NCBI GenBank assembly: GCA_006212015.1
Contig: SDAY01000007.1
Span: 1 to 41,176, forward strand
Direction of reading: 5' to 3'
Length of the DNA stretch: 41,176 nucleotides
DNA from: Halothiobacillaceae bacterium
Lineage (GTDB): Bacteria > Pseudomonadota > Gammaproteobacteria > Halothiobacillales > Halothiobacillaceae
Shown here: piece after piece, positions 19,443 through 24,311 of the stretch
Numbering within the stretch: position 1 is the stretch's first letter
Layout of the letters: each line of letters begins with the position of its first letter
The notes under the pieces: model-generated
Database searches by the model: none
What the model saw: the letters and a program-made list of their open reading frames with translations, nothing else
What the model was told of the DNA's origin: nothing
Translations under genes and position numbers: made by a program

Positions 19443-21545
19443 TCAGATCGCGCCGCCCAGCACCGAGATGTCCGCCACCTTGAGGAACAGCGCGCGCAGG
19501 CGGTTCAGCAGGGCGAGGCGGTTGTCGCGCAGGGCGGCGTCCTCGGCCATCACCATCACGCCGTCGAAGAAGGCATCCACGGCCTCGCGCAGGTGGGCCA
19601 GCCGGCCCAGCGCGGCGGTGTAGTCGCCGGCGGCGAACAGCGGGGCCAGCTCGGCCTCGAGCCGCCGCACGCGCGCGGCCAGCTCGCGCTCGGCGGGCTC
19701 GGCCAGCAGGGCCTCGTCGATGGCGGTGGGAAGGTCGCCTTCGACTTTCTTGAGGATGTTGCCGATGCGCTTGTTGGCGGCGGCAAGGGCTTCGGCCTGG
19801 GGCAGGGCGAGGAAGTCGTTGACTGCCTGGGCGCGGCGCTCGAAGTCCAGCGGGCGCGTCGGGCGGGTGGCCAGCACGGATTCAAAAACATCGGCACGAA
19901 TGCCACGATCCAGCGCGTAGGCGCGCATGCGGTCGAGCATGAATTCGAAAAGGTTGCTCACGGCAAGGGGGTTCCCATCACGGAGCACCACGGCATCTTT
20001 GCTGGGAAATTTTGCCTCATAAGCAAAGCCAAGTAGCGCGTGCATGTCCAAATCGAGATTTTTTTCGATCAGGATGCGCAACACACCAAGCGCGGCACGG
20101 CGCAGGGCAAACGGGTCTTTCGAGCCGGTCGGCTCCATGCCGGCTATGGCAAAAATGCCGACCAGGGTGTCCAGCCGCTCGGCCAGGGCGAGGGCCTGGC
20201 CGACGGTGGTCGCAGGCAGCGCGTCCCCGGCACGGCGCGGCATGTAGACCTCGTCCAGCGCCTGCGCGACCTCGGCATGCTCGCCGTCATGACGCGCGAG
20301 GTAGCGGCCCATGACGCCTTGCAGTTCGGGGAACTCGCCGACCATGCCGCTCATCAGGTCGCACTTGGCGAGCAGGGCTGCGCGCGCGGTGCGTTCCATG
20401 TCGGCGCCGGTCAGTCCCGCGATGTGGCGGGCCAGGCGGACCACGCGCTCGGTCTTGTCGAACTGGGTGCCGAGCCGCTGCTGGAACACCACGGTCTTGA
20501 GGCTGTCGAGCTGGGCGGACAGCGGCTGCTTGCGATCCTCGCGCCAGAAGAATTCGGCGTCGGAGAAGCGCGGGCGGATGACGCGCTCGTTGCCCATGCG
20601 CACGGCGGCGGGATCCGTGCTGTCGATGTTGGCGACGGTGATGAAGTGCGGCAGCAGCTCGCCGGCCTCGTCCAGCAGCGGGAAATAGCGCTGGTTGCCC
20701 TGCATGGTGGAGATCAGGGCCTCCTTGGGCACGGCGAGGAAACGCGGCTCGAAGTTGCCGGTCACCACGCGCGGCCATTCGGTCAGCGCGCTTACCTCGT
20801 CGAGCAGGTCCTCATCCAGCACGGCGCGGCCGCCAAGCTCACAGGCGGCGGCCTCGACCTGGGCCTTGATCATGGCGCGGCGGGCGGCGAAATCGGCGAT
20901 GACATGGCCGGTGCCTTCCAGCAGCGCGGCGTATTCGCCGGGCGCGGGCACGATCAGCGGGTCGGGGTGATGGAAGCGGTGGCCGCGGGTGCGCCGGCCG
21001 GTCTGCACGCCGTAGATCTCGGCGTCGATCACCTCATCGCCGAACAGCAGCACGATCCAGTGCACAGGGCGCACGAAGGCGACCTCGCCCGCGCCCCAGC
21101 GCATGCGCTTGGGGATGGGCAGCTCGTCCAGCGCCTGGGCGAGCATGTCCGGGATCAACGCCTGCGCGGGCTGTCCGGGCTGCATGGCGCGGTGGACCAT
21201 CCACGCGCCCTTGTCGGTGGTCAGTTCCTGCAGGTCGTTGACGGTCACGCCGCAGGAGCGGGCGAAGCCTTCCAGGGCCTTGCTCGGGCGGCCTTCACCG
21301 TCGAAGGCGGCGTTCACGGCCGGGCCGCGACGCTCGACCTCGCGGTCGGCCTGGCGCCCGGCCACGCCCCGCACCAGCAAGGCGAGGCGGCGCGGCGCGG
21401 CATAGACGGTATGGCCCTGCGGCGCGAGGCCCGCGTCATGCAGGCGGCGAGTGATGCCGTCGGCCAGCGCGTTGGCGAGGGTGGTGAGGGCCTTCGGCGG
21501 CAGCTCTTCGGCGCCGATTTCGATGAGGAGGTCGTGGGTATTCAT
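19443..21545 (-). CDS. glyS: Glycyl-tRNA synthetase beta subunit
   Basis: The 700-residue beta chain of the alpha2beta2 glycyl-tRNA synthetase. It begins with the conserved LLIEIGAEELPPKAL, and contains GPAVNAAFD, RPVHWIVLLFGDEVI, ALISTMQGNQRYFPL, the HD-like MEPTGSKDPFALRRAALGVLRI and the C-terminal anticodon-binding DALR-like region ending with VMVMAEDAALRDNRLALL. The ATG overlaps the stop of the upstream TOPRIM gene (ATGATGA at 21548-21542), so glyS is translationally coupled to that gene rather than to glyQ. No Shine-Dalgarno is visible. In most proteobacteria glyS directly follows glyQ. Confidence 0.97.
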   Translation of the reverse strand: MNTHDLLIEIGAEELPPKALTTLANALADGITRRLHDAGLAPQGHTVYAAPRRLALLVRGVAGRQADREVERRGPAVNAAFDGEGRPSKALEGFARSCGVTVNDLQELTTDKGAWMVHRAMQPGQPAQALIPDMLAQALDELPIPKRMRWGAGEVAFVRPVHWIVLLFGDEVIDAEIYGVQTGRRTRGHRFHHPDPLIVPAPGEYAALLEGTGHVIADFAARRAMIKAQVEAAACELGGRAVLDEDLLDEVSALTEWPRVVTGNFEPRFLAVPKEALISTMQGNQRYFPLLDEAGELLPHFITVANIDSTDPAAVRMGNERVIRPRFSDAEFFWREDRKQPLSAQLDSLKTVVFQQRLGTQFDKTERVVRLARHIAGLTGADMERTARAALLAKCDLMSGMVGEFPELQGVMGRYLARHDGEHAEVAQALDEVYMPRRAGDALPATTVGQALALAERLDTLVGIFAIAGMEPTGSKDPFALRRAALGVLRILIEKNLDLDMHALLGFAYEAKFPSKDAVVLRDGNPLAVSNLFEFMLDRMRAYALDRGIRADVFESVLATRPTRPLDFERRAQAVNDFLALPQAEALAAANKRIGNILKKVEGDLPTAIDEALLAEPAERELAARVRRLEAELAPLFAAGDYTAALGRLAHLREAVDAFFDGVMVMAEDAALRDNRLALLNRLRALFLKVADISVLGGAI

Positions 21546-22195
21546 CATGGGTAAATTCTTTGTAGCCATTCTTCTAAGCCCATCATCCACGGGTGCGTGG
21601 AATCAAGCTTTTTGTGCATATCTCCGTAGCCAAATGTTGGCTTTTTTTGCCAAGCAAGCCACGTATAAGTCTTGGCTTTGTCATGCCACCTAGTGTTTTG
21701 GATGTGATTGCATGGATGGTGGGCAAGGGATGCCTGAGCCAAATCCAAGCATGGCTTTTGCTCGGCAGAGCAAGATTCGATGAAGAACCTTTCAATGGCT
21801 CCACTATCCTGATGGCTTGGCATAAGCCAAACGCCAACAGGATTGATTACTCCGCTGGAGTGTATGAAGGCATCGCCCGTGCAGCCGAGGGGGTGAGGCT
21901 GAAAATCTTTGTTGGCGAATGCTTGTCTAATTTTACTGATTTGGTCTATGAAGTTGTCATCCGCATCAGCAACAAAGGCGAGGTGAGTGACTTCACCCGT
22001 TTTGATGCGGTCAAGCTCTTCTGGAATGAGTGTTAGTAGATGACTAATCCCGTTGCCTGTATGACCCAAGTCACTGGGCTTGTAAATCTGTATATCTACG
22101 CTGGTAAGGCCTAGTCTTTTATCAAGCATGGTTTTGAAGAAGAACTTCTCTTGTTCGCCTTCAACGATCAGTCTGCGGGAGGCTTGATTGGTCAT
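21545..22195 (-). CDS. TOPRIM-domain protein, DUF3226-like, partner of the adjacent ATPase
   Basis: A 216-residue protein with TOPRIM hallmarks: the glutamate Glu12 in LIVEGEQEKFF and Asp77-x-Asp79 in HLAFVADADDN. GVWLMPSHQDSGAIERFFIE follows, closely resembling the GIW-MP-N-x-x-G-x-LEDF segment of DUF3226 proteins. TOPRIM centres bind Mg2+ and in OLD, Gabija and PARIS systems act as nucleases. The start overlaps the ATPase stop in an ATGA (22192-22195), and the stop overlaps the glyS start. Base composition is clearly lower in GC than in the flanking gly genes, suggesting acquisition. The C-terminal part (RWHDKAKTYTWLAWQKKPT...) is typical of DUF3226/OLD-type TOPRIM partners. Activity is inferred from motifs only. 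Confidence 0.8.
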   Translation of the reverse strand: MTNQASRRLIVEGEQEKFFFKTMLDKRLGLTSVDIQIYKPSDLGHTGNGISHLLTLIPEELDRIKTGEVTHLAFVADADDNFIDQISKIRQAFANKDFQPHPLGCTGDAFIHSSGVINPVGVWLMPSHQDSGAIERFFIESCSAEQKPCLDLAQASLAHHPCNHIQNTRWHDKAKTYTWLAWQKKPTFGYGDMHKKLDSTHPWMMGLEEWLQRIYP

Positions 22196-23382
22196 CGAAT
22201 GTCCCTTCCCATGTCAACCAAGTCCTTTAGTCGATCCTCTTCGTATCTTGTAACGACGGCTTTCCCATCAATGATTGATTGGCCAAGATGGTAGGCGCAG
22301 CCAAGCTCAGGATGGTTCGTGGCTGATTCTGCAAATGAAGCGATACAGTCGCTACTGTGAGTGGTTGCAAAAACCTGGATATCAAATTCAGATGAAAGTG
22401 CGAATATAAAGTCCCAGACTTGTTTTTGCATGCTGTAATGCAACCCGTTCTCAAATTCATCGATTAATAGAAAGCCATGGCGACAATTAACGATGGTGAG
22501 AGCTATTTGAAACAGGCGGCTTACCCCGTCGCCAAGGCTGCCCAAGGATATCGGGCGAGATGATGATGAGAGTCTAGCCATAGGGCGACGAGCCGTTCTT
22601 GGTCGATACCTGTCTACGCTGTCCGTTTCAACGAAGGCAAGATCCACAACATCGTTATCGATGATTTTAATCATATCGATAACTTTTCTTTCCCGTTCTG
22701 TCAGGACAACAAGATCCCATGAAGAGGATAGTGTTTCATTATCAATGAAGGTTGTGGGTACATAACCAAACGGGGTTGAGTTTGCCCGTCTTGATACGGG
22801 GCCTCGCCCTCGCATGATTAACGTATCATTGTCGATGTCTTGGCTGGCTAGAGTAAACTTCGATGCTTCGCCCGAGGCATGATCCGTGTGCGTGGCCTCT
22901 AGGGCGTAAAATACGGGGTAGCCATCTGATGTGTAATTTCTTATATCTTCGATGGATATGATGCGCCGTACCCATTTTGTTCTAACCGAGGGTTCATGTT
23001 CAAGGTCTTGGTCTGCTATATCAACCTCGGTTCTGATAAAAGGAATGGCCTGGATTTTTATATGAAGGCGCTCAGAGTCGCCGATTGATATGCCTTGTCC
23101 ATATTCAGGGAACGACCTGCCGTGGAAGAAGTTTTCTAGGAAATCAGCCTCATATCGAGTCGCGGATTCCCTGCCTCTGATGATTTCTTCATGCTCATGG
23201 GCAAGTCCAAGCATTACGTTTGGATCTCCTTGAGAAGATAAAACCTGCAGGGCTTCCAGTACGCTAGTCTTTCCCGAGCTATTTCTGCCGACTAATAGAT
23301 TCACCCGCCCAAGCTTCTCAAGCTTGAGGCTGCTGAGGCCGCGAAACCCATTGATTTCCAGGTTGTTGAGCAGTAACGACAT
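22192..23382 (-). CDS. AAA/ABC-type ATPase of the OLD/AriA-like class
   Basis: A 396-residue ATPase. It has the N-terminal FxGFRGL motif (INGFRGLSSLKLEKLGRVNL), Walker A GRNSSGKTS (about 32-40), an ABC-like signature in SLGSLGDGVSRL (about 281-289), Walker B GFLLIDEFENGLH (Asp308-Glu309) and a switch His342 in FATTHSSDC. This is the SMC/RecF/OLD-like class found in the ATPase half of split OLD and PARIS (AriA) systems. GGAGGG lies about six bases before ATG 23382. The gene is 17 bases downstream of glyQ and overlaps its TOPRIM partner by four bases. Sampled lines are about 40-50% GC, against about 65% in glyQ. There is no membrane segment, so it is a cytoplasmic protein. Confidence 0.85.
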   Translation of the reverse strand: MSLLLNNLEINGFRGLSSLKLEKLGRVNLLVGRNSSGKTSVLEALQVLSSQGDPNVMLGLAHEHEEIIRGRESATRYEADFLENFFHGRSFPEYGQGISIGDSERLHIKIQAIPFIRTEVDIADQDLEHEPSVRTKWVRRIISIEDIRNYTSDGYPVFYALEATHTDHASGEASKFTLASQDIDNDTLIMRGRGPVSRRANSTPFGYVPTTFIDNETLSSSWDLVVLTERERKVIDMIKIIDNDVVDLAFVETDSVDRYRPRTARRPMARLSSSSRPISLGSLGDGVSRLFQIALTIVNCRHGFLLIDEFENGLHYSMQKQVWDFIFALSSEFDIQVFATTHSSDCIASFAESATNHPELGCAYHLGQSIIDGKAVVTRYEEDRLKDLVDMGRDIR

Positions 23383-23399
23383 GCCAATCCCTCCAGAAA

Positions 23400-24311
23400 T
23401 TAACTCTTACGCCCCATCGGAAAGCCCAGTCGCTCACGCGAGGCGTAGTAGGCCTCGGCCACGGTGCGGGCCAGTTCGCGCACGCGCAGGATGTAGCGCT
23501 GGCGCTCGGTGACGGAGATGGCGCGGCGCGCGTCGAGCAGGTTGAAGGTGTGCGAGGCCTTGAGCACCTGCTCGTAGGCTGGCAGCGGCAGGGGGATGTC
23601 GAGCGCCATCAGGCGCCTGGCCTCCTTCTCGCACTGGTCGAACAGGCCGAACAGGAAATCCACGTCGGCATGCTGGAAGTTGTAGGTGGACTGCTCCACC
23701 TCGTTCTGGTGGTAGACGTCGCCGTAGGTGATGACGCCGTTCGGGGTCCTGGCCCACACCAGGTCGTACACGCTTTCCGCGTTCTGCATGTACATCGCCA
23801 GGCGCTCCAGGCCGTAGGTGATCTCGCCGGTCACCGGGCGGCAGTCGAGCCCGCCGATCTGCTGGAAATAGGTGAACTGGGTCACTTCCATGCCGTTCAG
23901 CCAGACCTCCCAGCCCAGACCCCAGGCGCCGAGGGTGGGGGATTCCCAGTTGTCCTCGACGAAGCGGATGTCGTGGGTCAGCGGGTCGAAGCCGAGCATG
24001 CGCAGCGAGCCGAGGTAGAGCTCCTGGATCGCAAGCGGGGAGGGCTTCATCACCACCTGGAACTGGTAGTAGTGTTGCAGGCGGTTGGGGTTCTCGCCGT
24101 AGCGGCCATCGGTGGGGCGGCGCGAGGGCTGCACGTAGGCGGCGTTCCAGGGCTCCGGGCCGATGGCGCGCAGGAAGGTGGCGGGGTGGAAGGTGCCGGC
24201 CCCCACCTCCATGTCCAGCGGCTGAAGTACGGCGCAGCCCTGGCGGGCCCAGTAGTCCTGCAGGGCGAGGATCAGGCCCTGGAAGGTGGAGAGGTCGTAG
24301 GCGGCAGGCAT
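23400..24311 (-). CDS. glyQ: Glycyl-tRNA synthetase alpha subunit
   Basis: The 303-residue catalytic alpha chain. Conserved class II aminoacyl-tRNA synthetase blocks are plain: [82 protein letters not shown] and [13 protein letters not shown]. It ends in GFPMGRKS. It charges tRNA-Gly together with GlyS, but here the two are separated by an ATPase/TOPRIM pair of 1.8 kb. It is the first gene of this operon. Confidence 0.98.

Follow-up and report, generated by a model that had tools for sequence, protein, structure and literature searches.

A candidate PDC-M38 immune cassette of split OLD-like type lodged between glyQ and glyS in a Halothiobacillaceae bacterium

We analyzed a window of 41,176 nucleotides from a Halothiobacillaceae bacterium (assembly GCA_006212015.1, contig SDAY01000007.1), in which two genes encoding an ATPase and a TOPRIM protein lie between the genes for the two subunits of glycyl-tRNA synthetase. 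All four genes are on the minus strand, in the order glyQ, ATPase, TOPRIM, glyS, and both cassette genes are intact. The features are as follows.

23400..24311, minus strand: glyQ, glycyl-tRNA synthetase alpha subunit, a host gene (Pfam PF02091, E 3.9e-148)
23383..23399, minus strand: 17-bp gap between glyQ and the ATPase gene, with a strong Shine-Dalgarno sequence, GGAGGG, for the ATPase gene (anti-SD duplex -9.8 kcal/mol)
22192..23382, minus strand: ABC/OLD-type ATPase, PDC-M38A, 396 aa (Pfam and PADLOC profiles, AlphaFold2 model, conserved motifs)
22192..22195, minus strand: stop/start overlap of the ATPase and TOPRIM genes, ATGA (ORFs)
21545..22195, minus strand: TOPRIM protein, DUF3226 / PDC-M38B, 216 aa (Pfam and PADLOC profiles, model, conserved residues)
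21545..21548, minus strand: TOPRIM stop codon (TGA, 21547-21545) overlapping the glyS start (ATGATG; sequence ccATGATGAAT)
19443..21545, minus strand: glyS, glycyl-tRNA synthetase beta subunit, a host gene, without a Shine-Dalgarno sequence of its own (anti-SD duplex -1.5 kcal/mol)

A first-pass annotation of this DNA had placed the pair between glyQ and glyS on the same strand, and the ORFs confirm its coordinates, the 17-bp gap, the ATGA overlap, and the stop/start overlap. It had also described the cassette as having no promoter of its own within an essential operon; we scored sigma-70 promoters only, and no consensus site was found on the cassette strand, which agrees with that description. 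The single sigma-70-like site is on the opposite strand, and the count is below that of shuffled sequences. No defence island was recognized around this copy when the ORFs were inspected by eye.

As judged from the sequence, the cassette is a recent horizontally acquired insertion. Its GC content is 0.47, compared to 0.67 to 0.69 for glyQ and glyS, and its GC3 is approximately 0.5, compared to approximately 0.9. In three congeners (G001, G002, and G003), the junction is empty, with glyQ and glyS overlapping by 4 bp (ATGA). The ATPase-TOPRIM pair was absent from all 70 glyQ loci read in relatives; thus it is not the conserved, vertically inherited glyQS component whose discovery the first-pass annotation had said would count against an immune module. 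A single-sequence search through 95 further genomes surrounding the host gave no TOPRIM relatives, and a profile search found the family in 8 of 369 genomes of the class, the source genome included. The source glyQ product ends in GRKS, followed directly by the stop codon, whereas the congeners' products carry a tail of approximately 10 residues after FPM. We looked for transposon-like ends or a target-site duplication and found short imperfect repeats only, none of them at the boundaries. A phage origin was likewise rejected: the TOPRIM protein had no match in 50,697 phage records, and only four relatives come from viral contigs.

The ATPase carries a Walker A motif (GRNSSGKT, with K38), the signature SLGDG, a Walker B motif (LLIDE, with E309), H342, and a C-terminal D-I-R. 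K38, E309, and H342 are invariant among 61 ATPase sequences. The protein matches Pfam AAA_15 (E 1.4e-25) and AAA_21. For the pair, no NCBIfam equivalog scored above its cut-off. In PADLOC-DB, its best match is PDC-M38A (PDLC04611, E 4.3e-100, residues 5 to 396 on model positions 2 to 383 of 383), and the second is an AbiLi model (E 9e-49). AriA models match partially (E 1.2e-25, with the best stretch at residues 260 to 347), the E value of PDC-M38A being lower by over 70 orders of magnitude. An AlphaFold2 model built from the alignment of 61 ATPases (pLDDT 89.1) has a fold of the SMC/Rad50/OLD class, and its structural matches include PtuA (Z 17.3) and GajA (Z 17.0). The last residues are predicted to be poorly ordered (mean pLDDT 63).

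The TOPRIM protein matches Pfam DUF3226 (PF11536, E 3.5e-32) and PADLOC PDC-M38B (PDLC04623, E 2.1e-39, residues 7 to 215 on model positions 4 to 218 of 219). With PADLOC searched to E 10 and Pfam to E 1, these were its sole profile matches, and none of the AriB/DUF4435, AbiLii, or RloB models matched. The metal-site residues are conserved across relatives (E12 in 69 of 69, D77 in 68 of 69, and D79 in 66 of 69), as are E135 and K173. Glu12, Asp77, and Asp79 had been pointed out in the first-pass annotation and stand as numbered, but its Walker A Lys39 is Lys38. The AlphaFold2 model of the TOPRIM protein (alignment of 69 TOPRIMs, pLDDT 89.9) is most similar in structure to PH0156 of Pyrococcus (2p62; Z 11.7, 189 residues, 3.4 A), followed by OLD Toprim domains (Z 8.6 to 9.8), AriB (7.1 to 7.8), retron Eco2 (6.7 to 7.6), and GajA (6.8). 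A likeness to TOPRIM nucleases, without which the earlier reading would have failed, is seen in the matches to OLD Toprims and AriB. Because Toprim Z scores of 7 to 8, such as those for AriB and GajA, are close to what a shared common fold yields, we give the conserved E12, D77xD79, E135, and K173 as much weight as the fold.

Given that the two proteins match PDC-M38A and PDC-M38B over almost the full length of the models, and do so much more strongly than they match any AriA, GajA, or PtuA model in PADLOC-DB, the pair is, on profile evidence, a member of the catalogued PADLOC candidate system PDC-M38, with every sequence feature tested in agreement. The gene order, with A directly upstream of B, and the overlap are also the same as in relatives. 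What differs is the setting: PDC-M38 relatives reside in defence operons or on plasmids, whereas the glyQ-glyS copy stands alone within a tRNA-synthetase operon. The first-pass annotation was right that this is an ATPase-TOPRIM pair of the OLD/PARIS kind, with profile matches far beyond chance and a Toprim fold that matches OLD and AriB; its suggestion of a possibly undescribed subtype is superseded by the fit to PDC-M38, and this is not a categorically new system. Our literature search found no paper naming DUF3226 or PDC-M38 and no published test of either.

The hallmarks of the OLD superfamily, namely the catalytic motifs of an ABC ATPase and a TOPRIM fold with an E...DxD site, are present, and three kinds of known system resemble the pair. 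PARIS (AriA and AriB, OLD class 4) is likewise a split ABC ATPase and Toprim nuclease, but its AriB/DUF4435 profile is unmatched here and its AriA match is partial. AbiL of Lactococcus (AbiLi and AbiLii) is likewise a two-gene ATPase and TOPRIM-like effector system, and an AbiLi model ranks second to PDC-M38A for our ATPase, but AbiLii is RloB-like and the effector here is DUF3226. OLD class 1, Gabija GajA, and retron Eco8 combine the same two domain types in one polypeptide, whereas we find two genes with no adjacent GajB or reverse transcriptase; the ATPase-TOPRIM fusion in one chain that marks OLD classes 1 to 3 is replaced by two separate ORFs. Membership in PARIS, AbiL, or the fused OLD classes is rejected because the effector family or the domain fusion fails in each case.

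Scanning GTDB for the TOPRIM peptide GVWxMP gave 482 relatives, of which we kept the best 80. An ATPase gene lies directly upstream of the TOPRIM gene in 78 of these 80 loci; the two without an adjacent upstream ATPase are L102, at a contig edge, and L137. Among 81 adjacent ATPases (L088-L171, including those on viral contigs), the last residue is arginine in 80, and the last three are E-V-R or E-I-R in 75; in the window, the corresponding residues are encoded at 22195-22203. More distant ATPases mostly keep a (E/D)-(V/I/F)-R tail, as in a Klebsiella plasmid homologue (WEVR) and L011 (MDVR), with exceptions in L007 and L009, which carry GE after the motif, and L008, which ends in TFR. We considered whether the EVR tail is a by-product of the CGATGA gene overlap and ruled this out, since the tail is kept in overlapping and non-overlapping pairs alike. 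Conservation of this degree suggests a tail that likely serves to dock the TOPRIM partner or a different subunit. The C-terminal arginine offers a new way into the mechanism and, together with the TOPRIM metal site, provides two directly testable points on an uncharacterized, widespread family.

Relatives of the pair are mobile and occur in varied contexts. The ATPase tree mixes phyla, with Pseudomonadota needing at least six changes on the starred branches. The plasmid records that carry ATPase relatives number 124; Klebsiella accounts for 109, and many are approximately 4 kb in size. An annotated DUF3226 gene adjoins the ATPase gene in six of the seven plasmid regions opened, and the seventh (L015) has an unannotated ORF, cut by the start of the record, that resembles a TOPRIM C-terminus. 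On L172 and related Klebsiella plasmids, a divergent ATPase-DUF3226 pair makes up nearly half of cryptic plasmids of approximately 4 kb, found in many isolates. At least eight loci of the family are inside Hma or BREX defence operons: an HmaB methylase gene is downstream of the pair in L098, L103, L104, L129, L134, L149, and L150, and in L161 a BrxC gene is upstream and a HEC-01A candidate downstream. In this BREX locus, the HEC-01A candidate (L161:6489-7688) is a second ATPase that directly overlaps the end of the TOPRIM gene, which puts two candidate systems in tandem. Core genes also flank some copies, namely mnmA and purB in L089 (7-bp overlap and 22-bp gap), secA and panC in L139 (gaps of 44 and 66 bp), a dapC-like aminotransferase gene and dapD in L163 (gaps of 312 and 38 bp), and purL, upstream of the pair, in L007; these are individual examples rather than a measured enrichment over random insertion. 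In L089, we asked whether the pair had replaced hflD between mnmA and purB, and this was not borne out: hflD is present elsewhere in that genome, so that insertion and earlier rearrangement are indistinguishable there.

Taken together, we regard it as reasonably probable that the pair is a candidate PDC-M38 immune cassette, split and OLD-like, that came in by horizontal transfer and took up its place at the glyQ/glyS junction. By analogy, it is most likely a split module of ATPase sensor and TOPRIM nuclease that would act in immunity or abortive infection in the manner of PARIS or AbiL, while belonging to neither. In PARIS, a hexamer of AriA sequesters AriB, a tRNase, until triggered (PMC12409363); in Escherichia coli, TOPRIM_OLD toxins of AbiL-like pairs are neutralized by ATPases of this kind, and AbiL itself confers abortive infection (PMC10440598). 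These are the split ATPase/Toprim systems of known behavior, and the simplest reading is that PDC-M38 would work likewise. The ATPase would oligomerize as a sensor and restrain the TOPRIM protein, probably by means of the (E/D)-(V/I)-R tail at its C-terminus, until an infection cue such as a phage protein, a DNA end, or a nucleotide change released or activated its partner. The TOPRIM protein would then act as a two-metal nuclease, its target being either tRNA, as for AriB, or DNA, as for OLD and GajA (PMC10568477), and cleavage would stop the phage from growing, most likely through abortive infection. The cassette would be expressed at the basal level of the aminoacyl-tRNA synthetase operon, with translation of glyS coupled to it. 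Not every OLD-family ATPase serves in defence, as Cran1 illustrates (PMC12796447).

The pair could instead be a toxin-antitoxin (addiction) module, with the TOPRIM protein as toxin and the ATPase as antitoxin, so that its loss is costly and phage defence is incidental. The frequency of the family on tiny plasmids is consistent with this, as are the ATPase-neutralized toxins of AbiL-like pairs, and coupling to glyS would also penalize loss. However, addiction does not predict the residence of relatives in Hma and BREX defence operons, and toxin-antitoxin and abortive infection overlap as categories; we judge this reading unlikely. We hold much the same doubt, slightly stronger, about direct DNA-cutting immunity of the OLD/Gabija type, in which the pair would break down or nick the DNA of phages or plasmids while the host survives. 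OLD Toprims, whose class cleaves DNA as GajA does, score best among relatives that have a solved structure and a known activity class, but the ATPase and Toprim of the pair are separate proteins, an arrangement shared with PARIS and AbiL, whose Toprim is a released toxin, and no DNA-binding element was recognized in the pair. An assembly error that fused foreign DNA to glyQ and glyS is conceivable in a draft of 227 contigs that may be a metagenome bin, yet both junctions fall at gene boundaries on the correct strand, with a stop/start overlap and within a 41-kb contig, which makes a chimera very improbable. The position between glyQ and glyS with overlapping start and stop might also point to a lineage-specific accessory of glycyl-tRNA synthetase or translation control, but the empty junctions of congeners largely refute this reading, the pair is unmatched in 95 relatives, and its own relatives occur in unrelated contexts, leaving it scarcely credible.

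The insertion appears to have had a consequence for glyS. In the three congeners with an empty junction, the glyS Shine-Dalgarno sequence forms an anti-SD duplex of -10.3 to -10.8 kcal/mol. The corresponding values in the source genome are -9.8 for the ATPase gene, -6.9 for the TOPRIM gene, and -1.5 kcal/mol for glyS. Because glyS lacks a Shine-Dalgarno sequence and its start overlaps the TOPRIM stop, it is probably translated by ribosomes finishing the TOPRIM frame, that is, by coupling. We also considered that the ATPase gene had captured the ancestral glyS Shine-Dalgarno sequence; the spacing is alike, yet the similarity to congeners is no better than that of shuffles, since 718 to 1,275 of 2,000 shuffles keeping the Shine-Dalgarno sequence and ATG reach the observed value. 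We offer, as a speculation that is probably wrong, that PDC-M38 cassettes persist by inserting exactly at housekeeping stop/start junctions, where the following essential gene comes to rely on translation of the cassette. In this reading, the insertion cost glyS its Shine-Dalgarno sequence, and a frameshift or nonsense mutation in the immune genes would starve glyS; the placement would serve as an addiction device, and the ATPase (E/D)-(V/I)-R tail would be the switch that holds the nuclease. If true, placement would guard an otherwise easily lost immune module against loss. Both the location within an essential operon and the apparent capture of glyS translation are out of the ordinary. Two points go beyond what is known of such systems: the probable coupling of glyS, along with the occurrence of the family next to further core genes, and the C-terminal arginine of the ATPase. 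Empty sites in congeners make this a clear instance of a candidate immune cassette that has entered an essential operon away from any recognized defence island, and defence searches based on islands would overlook such copies.

The survey of glyQ-glyS intervals that the first-pass annotation had proposed did not find the pair in relatives and brought other inserts to light. One further congener, G004 (L051, G004:C231:2800-7800), carries a different insert of 415 bp at the glyQ/glyS junction, between inverted CCACAGAG-type repeats, which encodes a 121-aa PDDEXK_3/GxxExxY protein (PF13366, 7e-40). The junction has thus been struck twice within one genus, and in both occupied genomes the last codons of glyQ differ from those of the other congeners. 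As in the source genome, glyS in G004 has no strong Shine-Dalgarno sequence (-3.1). In a distant relative (L070, G038:C36), the glyQ-glyS interval is 661 bp and contains an ORF that, named by eye, is glutathione S-transferase-like.
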